From Planctomycetaceae bacterium (GTDB lineage: Bacteria; Planctomycetota; Phycisphaerae; SM23-33): a stretch of DNA of 64,000 bases. The notes under the pieces were generated by a model. That model ran no database searches and had not been told where the DNA came from. It was given only the letters and a program-made list of their open reading frames with translations. Numbering within the stretch: the first letter of the stretch is position 1; the number at the start of each line of letters is the position of its first letter. The position numbers and the translations under genes are program-made. The DNA lies in assembly GCA_039680605.1 (NCBI GenBank), contig JBDKTA010000058.1:1-64000 (forward strand), read 5' to 3'. This document shows, one piece after another, positions 43,221-48,965 of the stretch.

Positions 43221-44594
43221 TTACAGGCGGTGCTGGAGCGGTTGGGTTCCTGGCCCGTCGGGGGCGATGAGGCCTTTCTGGATGTAGATGGGGTGGGTGG
43301 CGCGGCCGAGGGCGGGCAGGCGCAGGGCGAAGGCGATACCGGCCGCGGCGCAGCCGCCGGCCCCGACGAGCACCGCTCCCGGGGCGCCGAGCCAATGGGC
43401 CAGCCAACCGCTGAGCAGGCTGCCGAAAGGCATCATCCCCATGAAGCAGACGGTGTAGAGGCTCATGACGCGGCCTCGCTTGTCGTCGTCGACGATGGTC
43501 TGCAGCAGTGTGTTGCTGGCGACCATCTGGATCATGAAGGCAAAGCCCACCACCACCAGCAGTGACAGGGAGAGGTACAGGTTCGCCGAGAGGGCAAAGA
43601 GCGCCAAGGCCGCGGCGAACAGCACCGACGCGGCGGCCATGATTCTGCCCAGGCCTCGGGCGCTGGTTCGCCAGGCCAGGAGCACGCCGCCGGCCAGCGC
43701 GCCCAGTCCCGTGGCGGCGGTGAGGAAACCCAGGGTGGCCGGTCCGCCGTGGAAGATATCCTTGGCGAAGACCGGCAGCAGCACGGTGTAGGGCGTTCCG
43801 AGCAGGCTTGTCAGGGCCAGCAGCAGCAGGATGGCCCGGATGGGCGCGAAGCCCATCGAGTAGTTAAGCCCCTCGCGCAGGGTGTGCAGGATGCCCCGTC
43901 GCGGAGGGCGCGGCGGCCCGGGGCGCACGCGCATCGCCAGCAGCGCCGCCACGACGGCCAGGAACGTTGCGCCGTTGATCAGGAAGGCCCGCCCCTCGCC
44001 CAGGGCACGGTAGTTTTCACTGGCGGCGGCAGTCTGGGCGGGGCTCAGGACGTAGATCAGCCACCCGGCCAGCACCGGCCCGACCAGCTTGGCGGCGTTG
44101 ACCAGAAACGAATTGAGGGCGATGGCGTTGGGGAGGTCGTCCTTCTTCTCGAGCATCTCGACGACGAACGACTGGCGGATCGGAATGTCGAAAGCGTTGA
44201 TCAGCCCCATGACGGCCGCCAGGGCGATGATGTGCCAGACCTCGATGGCGCCGCTCAGGGCCAGGGCGCCCAGGGCGAAGGCCTGCACCATCGCCAGCAC
44301 CTGCGTCAGGATCAGCGCGCCGCGTCGGTTGACGCGGTCGGCCAGCACGCCGGCAAACGGGGCCACCAGGAACGTGAGGATCGAGCCGGCAAAACCCACC
44401 ACGCCCAGCAGCCATTCCGAGCCGGTCATGCGATACACCAGCCACGCCAGCGCCGTCCGCTGCACCCACGTGCCGATCAGGCTGGTGCCCTGGCCCAGGA
44501 AGAACAGCTTGTAGTTGCGGTGCCCCAGCGCGCGCACCAGCGTGCGCCAGCGGGGAAGGCTCTGGGAGGGAATGGGCGGCTCAACCGACGACAT
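43221..44594 (-). CDS. MFS efflux transporter (MFS_3/EntS-like)
   Basis: A 457-residue 12-helix exporter. It begins LFFLGQGTSLIGTWVQRTALAW, with motif A GVLADRVNRRGALI after TM2 and a second-half NTLLQTIVDDDKRGRVMSLY, a signature of the enterobactin-exporter-like MFS_3 family. ATG at 44594 has AGGA 7 nt upstream; a TTG at 44609 would add 5 residues. Substrate unknown, siderophore-like or drug export possible. Upstream is the nested palindrome 44660-44816. Confidence 0.88.
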   Translation of the reverse strand: MSSVEPPIPSQSLPRWRTLVRALGHRNYKLFFLGQGTSLIGTWVQRTALAWLVYRMTGSEWLLGVVGFAGSILTFLVAPFAGVLADRVNRRGALILTQVLAMVQAFALGALALSGAIEVWHIIALAAVMGLINAFDIPIRQSFVVEMLEKKDDLPNAIALNSFLVNAAKLVGPVLAGWLIYVLSPAQTAAASENYRALGEGRAFLINGATFLAVVAALLAMRVRPGPPRPPRRGILHTLREGLNYSMGFAPIRAILLLLALTSLLGTPYTVLLPVFAKDIFHGGPATLGFLTAATGLGALAGGVLLAWRTSARGLGRIMAAASVLFAAALALFALSANLYLSLSLLVVVGFAFMIQMVASNTLLQTIVDDDKRGRVMSLYTVCFMGMMPFGSLLSGWLAHWLGAPGAVLVGAGGCAAAGIAFALRLPALGRATHPIYIQKGLIAPDGPGTQPLQHRL

Positions 44595-44659
44595 CAGCTC
44601 ATCCTGCAAAAAGGTAATGATACTCTCCGCCGGCGGCGATCACAATGCGGGCGCGGGGA

Positions 44660-44816
44660 GGGGAAAAGTCGCGGCGGAGGCACTAAATGAAGAAGTAATT
44701 CGTTGTGTGAATTACTTCTTCATTTGGGGCCGTGTATCCTGGCTCAGCGCAAGTATCTATCAAAGCCAAACAACGGCTTTGATAAATACTTGGTGCCTCC
44801 GCCGCGACTTTTCCCC
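44660..44816. repeat. Nested T-shaped palindrome with two inner hairpins
   Basis: Outer arms, GC-rich, perfect over 24 bp (44660-44683 with 44793-44816). Inside lie two AT-rich hairpins of identical geometry, 17-bp stem and 7-nt loop: 44685-44701/44709-44725 (perfect) and 44751-44767/44775-44791 (one mismatch). The loops GTTGTGT and AAACAAC are complementary at 6 of 7 positions. A 25-bp segment joins the two hairpins. It lies between divergent genes, within a 336-bp gene-free gap. Confidence 0.9.
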
Positions 44817-44857
44817 GCCCGGCGAACCCGCGGCGGGTTAGATCAACCGTGCCGATC

Positions 44858-44930: not shown

Positions 44931-46556
44931 ATGCGAACAATCCATATGGCCCTGGCGGTAATGCTGGCGGCGGCGATGGCGCGAGCGGCCGAAGGACCGG
45001 ATCAGCAGCAAGCCGAAACCGGCGGCGTCAAGACCGCGCCCGTCGCGGCCAAAATCGAATACAGCCTCGACGGCGGCGCGACATACTCCGCCGCCCTGCC
45101 GGCGACGGTCGAGCCGGGACAGATCAAGCTCCAGGCGCGGGTGACGTTCAACGTCGACGACGCCGCGGCCGTGGCGATGCTGTTCCTGGCGTTTGAAGAC
45201 CAGAGCACGCGTTCGGCCTTCTGCCTGGGCAGCCTGCAAGACGCCCGCGGCAAATACTGCGGCGCCCTGCCGCTGTGGACGCACGTGGCCGGCACGCTCA
45301 ACGGCAAGGCGATAACCGGGCCTTTGCATCCGATGATGTACCACTACCTGCCCATCGACAGCGCAGCGCTGGTCAGGGGGCCCAACACGCTGATCGTCAC
45401 CGGCGGCCTGGCCGCGGCGGGCTACTCGCGCGGCGTGCCCACCAAGGCCCTGGCGCTGCTGGCCGCGGGGCCGCAGAAACCTGCCATCCGCAGCGGACCC
45501 ACCCTGGGCATGATCGGCGAGGACTTCTTCACCGTCACCTGCCGCACGAGCCTGCCCGCGGCCGTCACCGTCACGGCAACGCCCCTCGAACCGGCCGGCG
45601 CCGCCTCGACGGAGACATCAGCACCCGCCCTCTACCACCGCCTGAAAGTGATGCTGCCCAAGGGCACGCGCAAGTTCAAGTACACCATCGCCGGCAAGGC
45701 CGGCGCGTTCGAAGACGCCAAGGGACCGTTCGAGGTCACGCTACCGGATCCGCAGAACTTCCGATTCCTGGCCGTGGGCAACACGCGAAACAGCTCGAAC
45801 AACATCACGCTCTGCCCGGCGTTGATCGCCCAGATGCTCAAGACGCGGCCGCAGTTGTTCATGCACGCCGGGCAGGTGGTCGAGCTGGGGACGTGGGACT
45901 TTCACTGGGACCCGTACTACTTCACGCCGTATGCGCAGGTGCTGGCGACGGTGCCGACGTACCTGGCGCCCGACGGCGGCGACCACACGGGCATGGTCTA
46001 CAAGACGTTCTGGACGCCGGCCGGCGATAGCGAAGTGCTCAACTGGACGCAGGTCATCGGCAACGCGCGATTCATCGGCCTCGACGGCGCACAAGACTGG
46101 GCGGCCGGTTCGCCCAATGCGGCGTGGCTCGAAGGCGTGCTCAAGAACTCGCGCGAGAAGTTCGTTTTTGTCTTCAACCACTTTCCCGGTTACGCCTCGG
46201 GCATGATGGGCAAGATGAAGTTGCCGCCGCTGGTTCAGTGCCGCGAGGTAATTCTGCCGCTGCTGGCCAAGTACAACGCCACGGCGTTGATCTCGGCGTT
46301 CGATTACGACTACGAGCGATGCGAGGCCACGCCGCCCAAGGGCGTCACGTGCATCATCGTCGGGGCTGGCGGGTCCAAACGCCTCAACCAGAGCCCCACA
46401 GCCACGCGAAATAATCCCTTTGCCGGAACGGGCCCGTTCGTGTATGAGCATTCGTTCGCGGTCTTCGACGTCAAGGCCGACGCCTGCGTGATGACGGCCA
46501 TCGACATCGCGGGCAAGGAAATCGACAGCAAAACCTTCAAGCCCCGCCCGCGATGA
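44931..46556 (+). CDS. Secreted calcineurin-like phosphoesterase relative lacking metal ligands
   Basis: A 541-residue exported protein: signal peptide to about residue 20, two beta-sandwich domains, then a C-terminal domain with the order and spacing of purple acid phosphatase-type phosphoesterases. The ligand motifs are altered: the first GD box reads AVGNTRN, the second HAGQVVE, the GNHE box PDGGDHT, and the final GHxHxYER reads SAFDYDYER. Only the FNHFPG His survives. It is therefore likely a non-catalytic binding protein. ATG at 44931 has GGAGA upstream. It overlaps the following URO-D-like gene by 4 bp. Confidence 0.75.
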   Translation: MRTIHMALAVMLAAAMARAAEGPDQQQAETGGVKTAPVAAKIEYSLDGGATYSAALPATVEPGQIKLQARVTFNVDDAAAVAMLFLAFEDQSTRSAFCLGSLQDARGKYCGALPLWTHVAGTLNGKAITGPLHPMMYHYLPIDSAALVRGPNTLIVTGGLAAAGYSRGVPTKALALLAAGPQKPAIRSGPTLGMIGEDFFTVTCRTSLPAAVTVTATPLEPAGAASTETSAPALYHRLKVMLPKGTRKFKYTIAGKAGAFEDAKGPFEVTLPDPQNFRFLAVGNTRNSSNNITLCPALIAQMLKTRPQLFMHAGQVVELGTWDFHWDPYYFTPYAQVLATVPTYLAPDGGDHTGMVYKTFWTPAGDSEVLNWTQVIGNARFIGLDGAQDWAAGSPNAAWLEGVLKNSREKFVFVFNHFPGYASGMMGKMKLPPLVQCREVILPLLAKYNATALISAFDYDYERCEATPPKGVTCIIVGAGGSKRLNQSPTATRNNPFAGTGPFVYEHSFAVFDVKADACVMTAIDIAGKEIDSKTFKPRPR

Positions 46557-47797
46557 ACTGCTCTATGACTCCACGACAACGCATGCGAGAGTTTTTCGCC
46601 GGACGGGCGGTCGACCGGATCCCCAACGGCCTGGGCGGCTGCGAGACGGCCGGCATGCACCTGCTGGCATACGATAACCTCAAGGGCATCCTGGGCGTGG
46701 CGGACCCGCTCAACCGCATGTACACCTTCATGACCAACGCGGTCTTCGAGCCTTCGGTTCTTGCGGCGATGGAAGGCGACATGATCGTGCTCAACAGCCG
46801 CATGAGCGCCTCGCCGCTGTGGGGCCCGCCGGCCCGCGGGCGATGGAAGGACCAGGTCTTCTGGGGCAAGACGTTCCAGGTTCCCGCGGCATGGCAGTTC
46901 GAAACGCACCGGGACGGGACGATCTGGTGGGACAAGGCTCTCAAGTGCCCCCCCGGAGGCATCTACTTCGACTGGCCCAGCGGCCCGCCGAAGGTGCTCG
47001 AACTGCCCGACATGGATGCCCAGCCGTCTCCGGCAGACTTCAACCCCTCGCACGACCTGCCGCAGGAAATGCTCGCCGACATGGAAGCCGCGGCGCGATT
47101 CCTCCACGAGACGACGGACTACTCGATCGTGGTCGGCGAGTCGATCCATGACCTGCAGCTCAAGCCCGGCGGCATGCACGCGTGGTGGATGCGCATGCGC
47201 ATCGAACCCCAGGCCTGCCACGAGTACCTCGCCAAGGCCGTTGACGCGGGGCTGGCGCACCTACGGCAGGTGCATCAGGCCGTCGGCAAATACGCCGACG
47301 CGATGATCATCGCCGACGACATCGGCGATACCCGCGGCGTGACCTGCGGACCGGACCTGTGGCGCGAGATCTACAAACCCCACTACAAGCGGCTGTGGAA
47401 CGGCTGGAAGACGATCACGCACATGAAGTCGCTGCTGCACTGCTGCGGCAGCGTGGTGGACATCATGGACGACTTCATCGATTGCGGCCTGGATATCTTC
47501 AACCCCATCCAGGTCTCCGCGCGGGGGATGGACGTCGCGACGCTGGCGGCGCGGTTCGGCGGGCGGATCATCTTCTACGGCGGGGCTCTCGACGCGGTGG
47601 TTACGCCGCCGCCCACGCCCGACGAGCTTGTCTATGAGCAGGCGAGCAAGGTCATCGAGACTCTCGCGCAGGCCGGGCGGTATATCTTCGCCGGGACGCA
47701 CAATATCCCCGGCGACACCCCGCCGGGCCATCTTCGCGCAATTCTCGACGCGTACAACAGCGTCAAGTATACTGCTGCGCCTTGGATACGGAACTGA
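46553..47797 (+). CDS. Uroporphyrinogen decarboxylase (URO-D)-like protein 1
   Basis: A 414-residue TIM-barrel protein of the URO-D superfamily, which includes haem-pathway decarboxylases and cobalamin/zinc methyltransferases of the MtaA/CmuA type. Visible marks: MTPRQRMREFFAGRAVDRIP at the start, DDIGDTRG, HCCGSVVDIMDDFID (His-Cys, a candidate zinc site) and AGTHNIPGDTPPGH near the end. The arginine motif of true HemE is absent, so haem synthesis is unlikely. Its ATG overlaps the upstream stop (ATGA); the ATG at 46565 is an alternative. A second paralogue follows after 13 bp. Confidence 0.82.
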   Translation: MNCSMTPRQRMREFFAGRAVDRIPNGLGGCETAGMHLLAYDNLKGILGVADPLNRMYTFMTNAVFEPSVLAAMEGDMIVLNSRMSASPLWGPPARGRWKDQVFWGKTFQVPAAWQFETHRDGTIWWDKALKCPPGGIYFDWPSGPPKVLELPDMDAQPSPADFNPSHDLPQEMLADMEAAARFLHETTDYSIVVGESIHDLQLKPGGMHAWWMRMRIEPQACHEYLAKAVDAGLAHLRQVHQAVGKYADAMIIADDIGDTRGVTCGPDLWREIYKPHYKRLWNGWKTITHMKSLLHCCGSVVDIMDDFIDCGLDIFNPIQVSARGMDVATLAARFGGRIIFYGGALDAVVTPPPTPDELVYEQASKVIETLAQAGRYIFAGTHNIPGDTPPGHLRAILDAYNSVKYTAAPWIRN

Positions 47798-47810
47798 ACA
47801 GGAGCTTGCG

Positions 47811-48965
47811 ATGAACGAACGACAAAGGACGATGGCCGTCCTGCATTATGAACCGTACGACCGCCTGCCCATCGTGCATTTCGGGTACTGGGGCGAGACG
47901 CTCTGGAAGTGGGTGCAGGAGGGGCACCTGACCGAGGATGAGGCCCGCGGCTGGTACGACGGCGGCGGGACCGACCCGGCGATCTGCAAGAAGCTGGGCT
48001 TCGACTTCGATTACTACGCGTGCTTCCACACCAGCACGGGGATGAACCCCGGCTTCGAGTACAAGGTGATCGCCGAGTTTCCCGACGGCGCCAAGCACGT
48101 GCAGACCGGCGAGGGCGTCGTCGTGCTCCAGCGCCCCGGCGCCACGGGAATCCCCTCCGAGATCGACCATATCTTCAAGGGCCGCAAGGAGTGGGACGAG
48201 CAGTACAAGCACCGCTTCAATTTCTTTCCCGAGCGCGTCACCAAGTGCCACGTGCGGACCAACGACGGCACGCTGCCGCTGGAGGCCGGCGGGGCGGAGT
48301 TCCTCAAGGCCGACACGCGCGAGTTCCTCTACGGCCTGCACTGCGGCAGCCTGTACGGCAGCATCCGCAATTTCATAGGCGTGGAGAACTCGGCGTACCT
48401 GGTCGTCGACGATGAGCCGCTGTTCGACGAGATCATCGCCACCGTCGGCGAGCTGTGCTACCGCTGCACCAAGCAGGCCCTGGAGAGCGGAGCCAAGTTC
48501 GACTTCGCCCACTTCTGGGAAGACATCTGCTTCAAGAACGGCCCGCTCATTTCGCCGCGGGTGTTCATGGAGAAGGTGGGCCCGCAGTACAAGCGGATCA
48601 CGCAACTGGTCAACAGCTACGGCATCGACATCGTGAGCCTGGACTGCGACGGGATGATCGACGCGCTGATCCCGACGTGGATCGAGAACGGCGTCAACAC
48701 GATGTTCCCCATCGAGGTCGGCACGTGGAACGCCAGCATCGCCCCGTGGCGGGCCCAGTACGGCAAGGAGCTTCGCGGCGTCGGCGGGATGGACAAGAAA
48801 GTCTTCGCCCGCGACCGCGCTGCCGTCGATGCCGAAGTCGAACGCCTCCGCCCGCTGGTGGCCCTGGGGGGATTCATCCCCTGCCCCGACCACCGCATTC
48901 CCCCCGACGCCCAGTGGGACAACGTCCGCTACTACTGCGACCGGATGCACAAGGTCTTCGGATAG
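47811..48965 (+). CDS. Uroporphyrinogen decarboxylase (URO-D)-like protein 2
   Basis: A 384-residue member of the same superfamily: MNERQRTMAVLHYEPYDRLPIVHFGYW, FWEDICFKNGPLISP, VSLDCDGMIDALIPTWIENG and a C-terminal GGFIPCPDHRIPPDAQW (Cys and His typical of the methyltransferase-like branch). AGGAG precedes ATG at 47811. With protein 1 it forms a pair, as often seen in planctomycetes; they may act on related methylated or carboxylated compounds. Substrate unknown. Confidence 0.82.
   Translation: MNERQRTMAVLHYEPYDRLPIVHFGYWGETLWKWVQEGHLTEDEARGWYDGGGTDPAICKKLGFDFDYYACFHTSTGMNPGFEYKVIAEFPDGAKHVQTGEGVVVLQRPGATGIPSEIDHIFKGRKEWDEQYKHRFNFFPERVTKCHVRTNDGTLPLEAGGAEFLKADTREFLYGLHCGSLYGSIRNFIGVENSAYLVVDDEPLFDEIIATVGELCYRCTKQALESGAKFDFAHFWEDICFKNGPLISPRVFMEKVGPQYKRITQLVNSYGIDIVSLDCDGMIDALIPTWIENGVNTMFPIEVGTWNASIAPWRAQYGKELRGVGGMDKKVFARDRAAVDAEVERLRPLVALGGFIPCPDHRIPPDAQWDNVRYYCDRMHKVFG

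Follow-up and report, generated by a model that had tools for sequence, protein, structure and literature searches.

Structure of the element

The window, the whole stretch of 64,000 nucleotides that was analyzed, carries a T-shaped nested palindrome in the gap between two divergent genes, and the features of this region are listed in Table 1. The divergent arrangement and the MFS neighbor given in the preliminary description were both confirmed, and its phosphoesterase-like label for the gene on the other side was not. Further downstream (window 46553-48965), two tandem genes resemble each other; by eye they are presumably uroporphyrinogen-decarboxylase-like.

Table 1. Positions of the element and of the neighboring genes in the window.
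Feature	Position	Strand	Description
MFS transporter gene (outside the element)	43221-44594	-	PF05977, 6e-50
Left-tip site	44640-44659	+	GTATCCCCTCAGTTAC or GTAATGCCTCAGTCAC type in intact copies; unrecognizable in the window copy
Outer arm, left	44660-44683	+	GGGGAAAAGTCGCGGCGGAGGCAC; inner portion of the terminal inverted repeat; 24/24 complementary to 44793-44816
Hairpin 1	44685-44725	+	Stem AAATGAAGAAGTAATTC / GAATTACTTCTTCATTT (44685-44701 / 44709-44725), 17/17 pairs; loop GTTGTGT (44702-44708)
Linker	44726-44749	+	Joins the two hairpins; unconstrained (55% mean pairwise identity vs 93-95% in the stems)
Hairpin 2	44750-44792	+	Stem CAAGTATCTATCAAAGCC / GGCTTTGATAAATACTTG (44750-44767 / 44775-44792), 17/18 pairs; loop AAACAAC (44768-44774)
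Outer arm, right	44793-44816	+	GTGCCTCCGCCGCGACTTTTCCCC; 24/24 complementary to 44660-44683
Right-tip site	44817-44836	+	Tip in intact copies; unrecognizable in the window copy, target-site duplication gone
541-aa ORF (outside the element)	44931-46556	+	No Pfam family matched

The outer arms were found to be perfectly paired and GC-rich around two AT-rich hairpins with 7-nt loops, as first described, and the reported sharp switch in composition was also seen: the GC content was 71% in the arms, 27% and 35% in the hairpins and 71% in the linker, with 64% for the whole window. The 17-bp length given for both stems was correct for hairpin 1, but hairpin 2 contains one C-A mismatch among its 18 positions. 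The fold of the window copy was compared with that of shuffled sequence, which gave z = -14.2 for RNA and z = -15.4 for DNA, and none of 200 shuffles folded equally well. A 12-nt match in the linker to ATCCTGGCTCAG, which we take to be the 5' end of the 16S rRNA, was limited to the window copy and was judged to be due to chance.

A kissing contact between the two loops had also been suggested. The loops of the window copy could indeed pair at 6 of 7 positions. However, full complementarity was present in only about a third of 32 copies from the same genome, a level barely above shuffled pairing (23 of 500 within-genome shuffles reached it), and the sister genus G023 has not retained it. Kissing loops are thus a local property, weak in this genome and unsupported outside it.

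Copies in the genome of the window

The assembly that contains the window (G000; 5.23 Mb, 72 contigs, 95% complete) was searched by BLAST, which gave about 33 full-length copies with 82-100% identity and several partial copies, and a covariance model retrieved approximately the same set. The left-arm sequence was found again in the full copies, and an arm scan added solo arms. About 10 copies were damaged, with hairpin 1, hairpin 2, or one of the arms missing. Genes predicted by a simple codon-usage caller place nearly all copies in intergenic positions, often at 20-150 nt from a start codon, and about half of the copies in divergent gaps.

Among the solo arms, L089-L093 carry one tip and have no partner arm, and are apparently deletion remnants; at L089 the break fuses GAGGCA of the inner arm to the tip-like sequence GAGGCATTA. 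In L037 and L030:5892-6048 the two tip types have changed places with respect to the core, which suggests an inversion of the core between the arms.

Distribution in Planctomycetota

The 157-nt T-shaped core (T-core) was looked for with covariance models. The first model, built from the G000 copies and one copy of G023 (Planctomycetales MAG CSMAG_1105), was run against 397 genomes of the class and matched only G000, G023 (about 20 copies), and G005 (about 28 copies). When a three-genus model was applied across the phylum, G533 and G547 of a different class were also matched, and a model built from these two retrieved a single copy in G547 and about 20 in G533. They are the 2 carriers of the T-core among 9 genomes of that class. 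Besides G000, the core is therefore present in four genera at 1 to about 28 copies per genome; two of them belong to the same family and two to the other class. Matches in G505 and G430 were rejected as a simple-repeat hairpin and an unstructured stretch.

All carriers have in common a linker, a hairpin 1 whose 5' strand is rich in A, and an outer stem whose junction end reads G-rich ...CAC. Only in G005 is hairpin 2 degenerate; the other carrier genomes have it in clear form. The arms and hairpins of the relatives differ in sequence and are still paired. The arms and hairpins had been proposed as queries against this genome and related ones, with a unique sequence, unpaired or scrambled in relatives, as the outcome that would speak against selection on the structure. 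The searches gave the opposite on both counts: the element has about 33 full copies in its own genome, and in the four other genera the sequence has changed but the pairing persists.

Some relatives carry additional features. In G023, ten copies (L076, L078, L079, L080, L082, L083, L100, L101, L104, and L115) contain another short palindrome within loop 1 (ACCTGCCTGCCGGCAGGCAGGT or its variants); L099 and L102 have a longer insert in loop 1, and L115-L117 have one in the linker. At the contig start, the host DNA next to L078 and L083 (C161, C740) is itself a perfect inverted repeat, which is probably an artefact of fold-back in the assembly of the MAG. In G533, copies L144-L151 of subfamily I share conserved sequence outside the arms (GGCCGCAACCAAA upstream and GACCCCAACRTGCGCGC downstream) with a small further hairpin on each side.

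Tips, target-site duplications, and mobility

The preliminary description had left a mobile palindromic element among its options, and the many dispersed copies together with exact target-site duplications bear this out. Boundaries and duplications in G000 were set by reading the sequences. The better-preserved copies reach past the arms to GTA(A/T)-type tips, and exact 8-bp direct repeats were present at L015 (GCGTCTGC), L030 (CGTTTGGC), L025 (GTCAGGGG), and L037 (GCCACGGG). Around the G023 tips, GTAACTATTCAC and GTAAGAGTTYAG (GTAAC/GTAAG), five 8-bp repeats are exact (TCCTAAAT, GCTACTGA, GAAACTTT, TCTCCGGC, and CTGTATTC) and several others match at 7 of 8 positions. The duplications in G533 are 9 bp long (CTTCGTGAC, CCCTCGCGG, and CCTGGCCCG) and lie at GGGTGCAG-type tips; its subfamily II has GGGTGCAGTAA...TTACTGCACCC tips, with exact 9-bp duplications in 3 of 12 copies, all at one offset pair. 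No target-site duplication was found at the T-elements of G005. Exact duplications of 8 or 9 bp were thus seen in three genomes and in a minority of copies; most copies, including the window copy, are without them.

The copies are short, dispersed, and without genes, they have terminal inverted repeats consisting of tips and arms, and some of them have tips with exact 8-bp target duplications. Therefore, the element satisfies all the tests that were applied for a miniature non-autonomous transposon (MITE). As for the window feature itself, its arms are identical to the consensus (100%) and its tip score is at background level. Taken as a whole, the explanation that we favor is probably correct: the MITE, about 190 bp long, has spread to about 33 intergenic sites of this genome, and the window contains one of its old copies, now without tips.

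Two other kinds of element were considered. An integrated terminal hairpin or replication origin of a single-stranded DNA virus, an analogy raised at the outset, shares with the element its T-shape and nothing else; the copies are dispersed by the dozen over intergenic sites of the chromosome with insertion duplications, searches of phage, plasmid, and viral collections gave no match beyond chance, and this origin is hardly credible. One match to a Mycobacterium phage was at chance level. A REP-like element moved as folded single-stranded DNA by a Y1 enzyme (TnpA-REP/RAYT) would also be a folded palindromic intergenic repeat, and REPs are known in Planctomycetes (PMC3733652). However, REPs are 20-40 bp long with a GTAG or CGTC tag, the element has a 157-nt core and other tips, and its 8- or 9-bp target duplications point to DDE enzymes, which makes a REP-like origin very improbable.

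The tips and the 8-bp duplication in G000 and G023 resemble those reported for the IS66 family, most closely those of ISDge4 of the ISBst12 group. The terminal inverted repeats of ISDge4 are GTGACTACTCAGCA / GTAACTGCTCAGCA with an 8-bp direct repeat (PMC12898284), and those of IS66 begin with GTAAGCG, also with 8-bp direct repeats (PMC11946415). The element shares the imperfect GTAA...TCAG tips and the 8-bp duplication with the ISBst12 group, but it has no transposase gene, and in G533, where the GTAA-type tips with 8-bp duplication are absent, the same core comes with 9-bp duplications at GGGTGCAG-type tips. No IS66 DDE transposase (PF03050) was found in G000 or G023, a weak absence in draft genomes. 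The tip sites of G023 are nearly all attached to a T-core and not to a transposase, and no autonomous partner element was found in either genome. G005 has three IS66 transposases without an established tie to its T-elements, and no matching terminal repeats were found at its IS66 copy L085/L088. Since neither G000 nor G023 yielded a parent IS with the same tips, we do not class the element as a proven IS66 derivative.

Intact copies would be mobilized in trans by DDE transposases, in G000 and its sister genus by an enzyme of the ISBst12/IS66 type. A different enzyme would act in G533, where both the tip sequence and the duplication length differ. A second MITE in G000 (L094:3001-3150, G000:C25:94097) has the same tips (CTAACGCCTCAGTTATGG ... 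ACTGAGGCATTGC) around an interior that is GC-rich and unrelated, and CCTGACRA, with one mismatch, is probably its 8-bp duplication; such an element is expected if a tip-recognizing enzyme acted in trans. To judge from the sequences, the core appears with at least two tip types, GTAA with 8 bp and that of G533 with 9 bp, which may reflect an exchange of tips or origins in parallel, and the T-fold does not look tied to one transposase.

Conservation of the fold

Compensatory changes between copies, which had been put forward as a check on the structure, were found. Among the G000 copies and one G023 copy, 19 pairs had changed on both sides, compared with 5.0 in shuffles. Hairpin 1 shows compensatory changes across other copies and genera; its covariation was quantified from G005 alone, because automatic detection mis-registered several G000 and G023 copies. 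When the G005 hairpins were aligned by counting from the loop, 41 both-side cells were obtained, in comparison with 10.7 in shuffles, and one position occurs as AT, CG, GC, and TA. Hairpin 2 is kept with altered stem sequence in G023, and family f97 has an equivalent of it. The arms of two G533 subfamilies are unrelated in their outer halves (GGGAAAACCCAGG and CGGATTTGTGCGG), each almost perfectly paired, and 94 both-side cells were counted in G533 against 33.9 in shuffles, a value reached in 0 of 500 shuffles; the A7 alignment was fitted to the model structure and leans towards it, with a small bias given that the arm columns are gap-free.

Sequence drift was unequal along the element. The loops of the G000 copies had 72-74% pairwise identity, between the values of the stems and the linker (Table 1). 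In 12 disjoint pairs of closely related copies, the stems differed at 3.1% and the linkers at 19.4% of sites, a 6-fold difference (P = 5e-20, an indicative value because of some dependence among the sites of a pair). Many copies, including the window copy, have tips near background while their arms are at 96% of the consensus. Mispairs were slightly more frequent in copies with worse tips (rho = -0.38, P = 0.03), so some erosion follows. The data showed that the pairing and stem sequence of the T-core are conserved while the linker, loops, and tips drift.

These data bear on two explanations without selection. In the first, the element is a plain MITE whose arms pair as terminal repeats and whose inner hairpins are historical accidents without function. 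Complementary terminal repeats are indeed expected in any MITE, the duplications show mobility, and pairing of the arms alone could reflect the symmetry of DNA ends, because the arms belong to the terminal repeats. However, the inner hairpins covary, which no transposase end explains, and pairing there cannot be accounted for by DNA-end symmetry; moreover, the stems drift 6-fold less than the linker and copies that have lost their tips retain the core. In the second, one arm is rewritten from the other by template switching in quasi-palindromes, which would fit the near-perfect pairing and the few G-T or A-C intermediates. Such symmetric correction equalizes the arms without slowing their drift, yet the stems drift far less than the linker. 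Both explanations are improbable, to about the same degree. The fold itself appears, from these comparisons, to be preserved by selection, although part of the stem/linker difference may predate insertion and have arisen in source copies.

DNA or RNA as the folded strand

We analyzed the mispairs for a strand preference. G-T and A-C mispairs were about equally frequent in the G000 copies (20 and 28) and in the copies of family f97 (21 and 29), while G005 leaned to G-T, about 12 to 4 as read from the tables. The balance in two of the three genomes argues against a one-strand RNA, which should prefer one of them, and favors, with modest confidence, a role that is DNA-level or independent of orientation.

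The structured RNA among the initial proposals is possible but not favored. By analogy with NEMIS/Correia of Neisseria and enterobacterial ERIC, the MITE would be read through in transcripts of neighboring genes in either orientation, and its perfect duplexes would be processed, for example by RNase III, or would stabilize or destabilize messages. Its intergenic placement close to start codons, often in divergent gaps, fits such a role, and transcripts of bacterial MITEs have been described as highly paired, and NEMIS as RNase III substrates (PMC2229807). One position of hairpin 2, C-A in 19 of 32 G000 copies, corresponds to a G-U pair on the minus strand and is consistent on that strand only. 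Against this stand the balanced mispairs and the almost wobble-free stems, and no credible Rfam match was obtained at gathering or permissive thresholds. We regard the RNA-level role as a minority possibility.

The DNA-level mechanism is preferred, at about an even chance. Here selection would maintain the T-core for a function that depends on the strand being folded, whichever transposase moves the element. The strand would become single at the replication fork, in a transposition intermediate, or through supercoil-driven extrusion; its arms and hairpins would then fold into a three-way junction, and a structure-reading protein would bind this junction, to the benefit of element upkeep or of host chromosome handling.

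Comparison with known systems

Bacterial MITEs are usually seen as relics with one end-to-end stem. The T-element has an internal three-branched fold kept by compensatory change in several genera, in two classes, and with two kinds of tip, even in tip-less copies. Whether the fold of a bacterial MITE is a by-product or a function becomes a question that can be tested in sequence data, and covariance models are now at hand for seeking such elements elsewhere. In a broader, tentative reading, the T-core could be a structured nucleic-acid module that is ancient in Planctomycetota and selected for a function of its own. It would ride on unrelated transposon ends and survive their exchange, so that one three-branched fold would recur in classes that differ in tips and in the length of the duplication.

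No earlier description of the element was found in the open-licence literature. REP/BIME palindromes are also intergenic and present in many copies, but they are much shorter, GTAG/CGTC-tagged, and without target duplication (PMC3733652). The Correia/NEMIS and ERIC/IRU MITEs are intergenic, 100-200 bp long, and have terminal repeats and a stable long stem; this stem runs end to end without arms or linker (PMC2229807), in contrast to the T-element, which is three-branched across genera and tip types. The CcrM-associated intergenic repeats of Caulobacter (CIRs; PMC2229807) are likewise dispersed and intergenic, with two hairpin arms, a linker, and a phylogenetically conserved structure. However, CIRs have no pairing between their 5' and 3' ends (PMC2229807), whereas the T-element has an outer stem of 24-27 bp, and the GANTC motif that CIRs expose in the terminal loop was not seen, by reading, in the stems or loops of the window copy. 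The end-to-end stem of Correia/ERIC and the two arms with linker of CIR have been described as separate designs (PMC2229807). Judged by its sequence, the T-element unites the two and would represent a new MITE architecture, closest to both.
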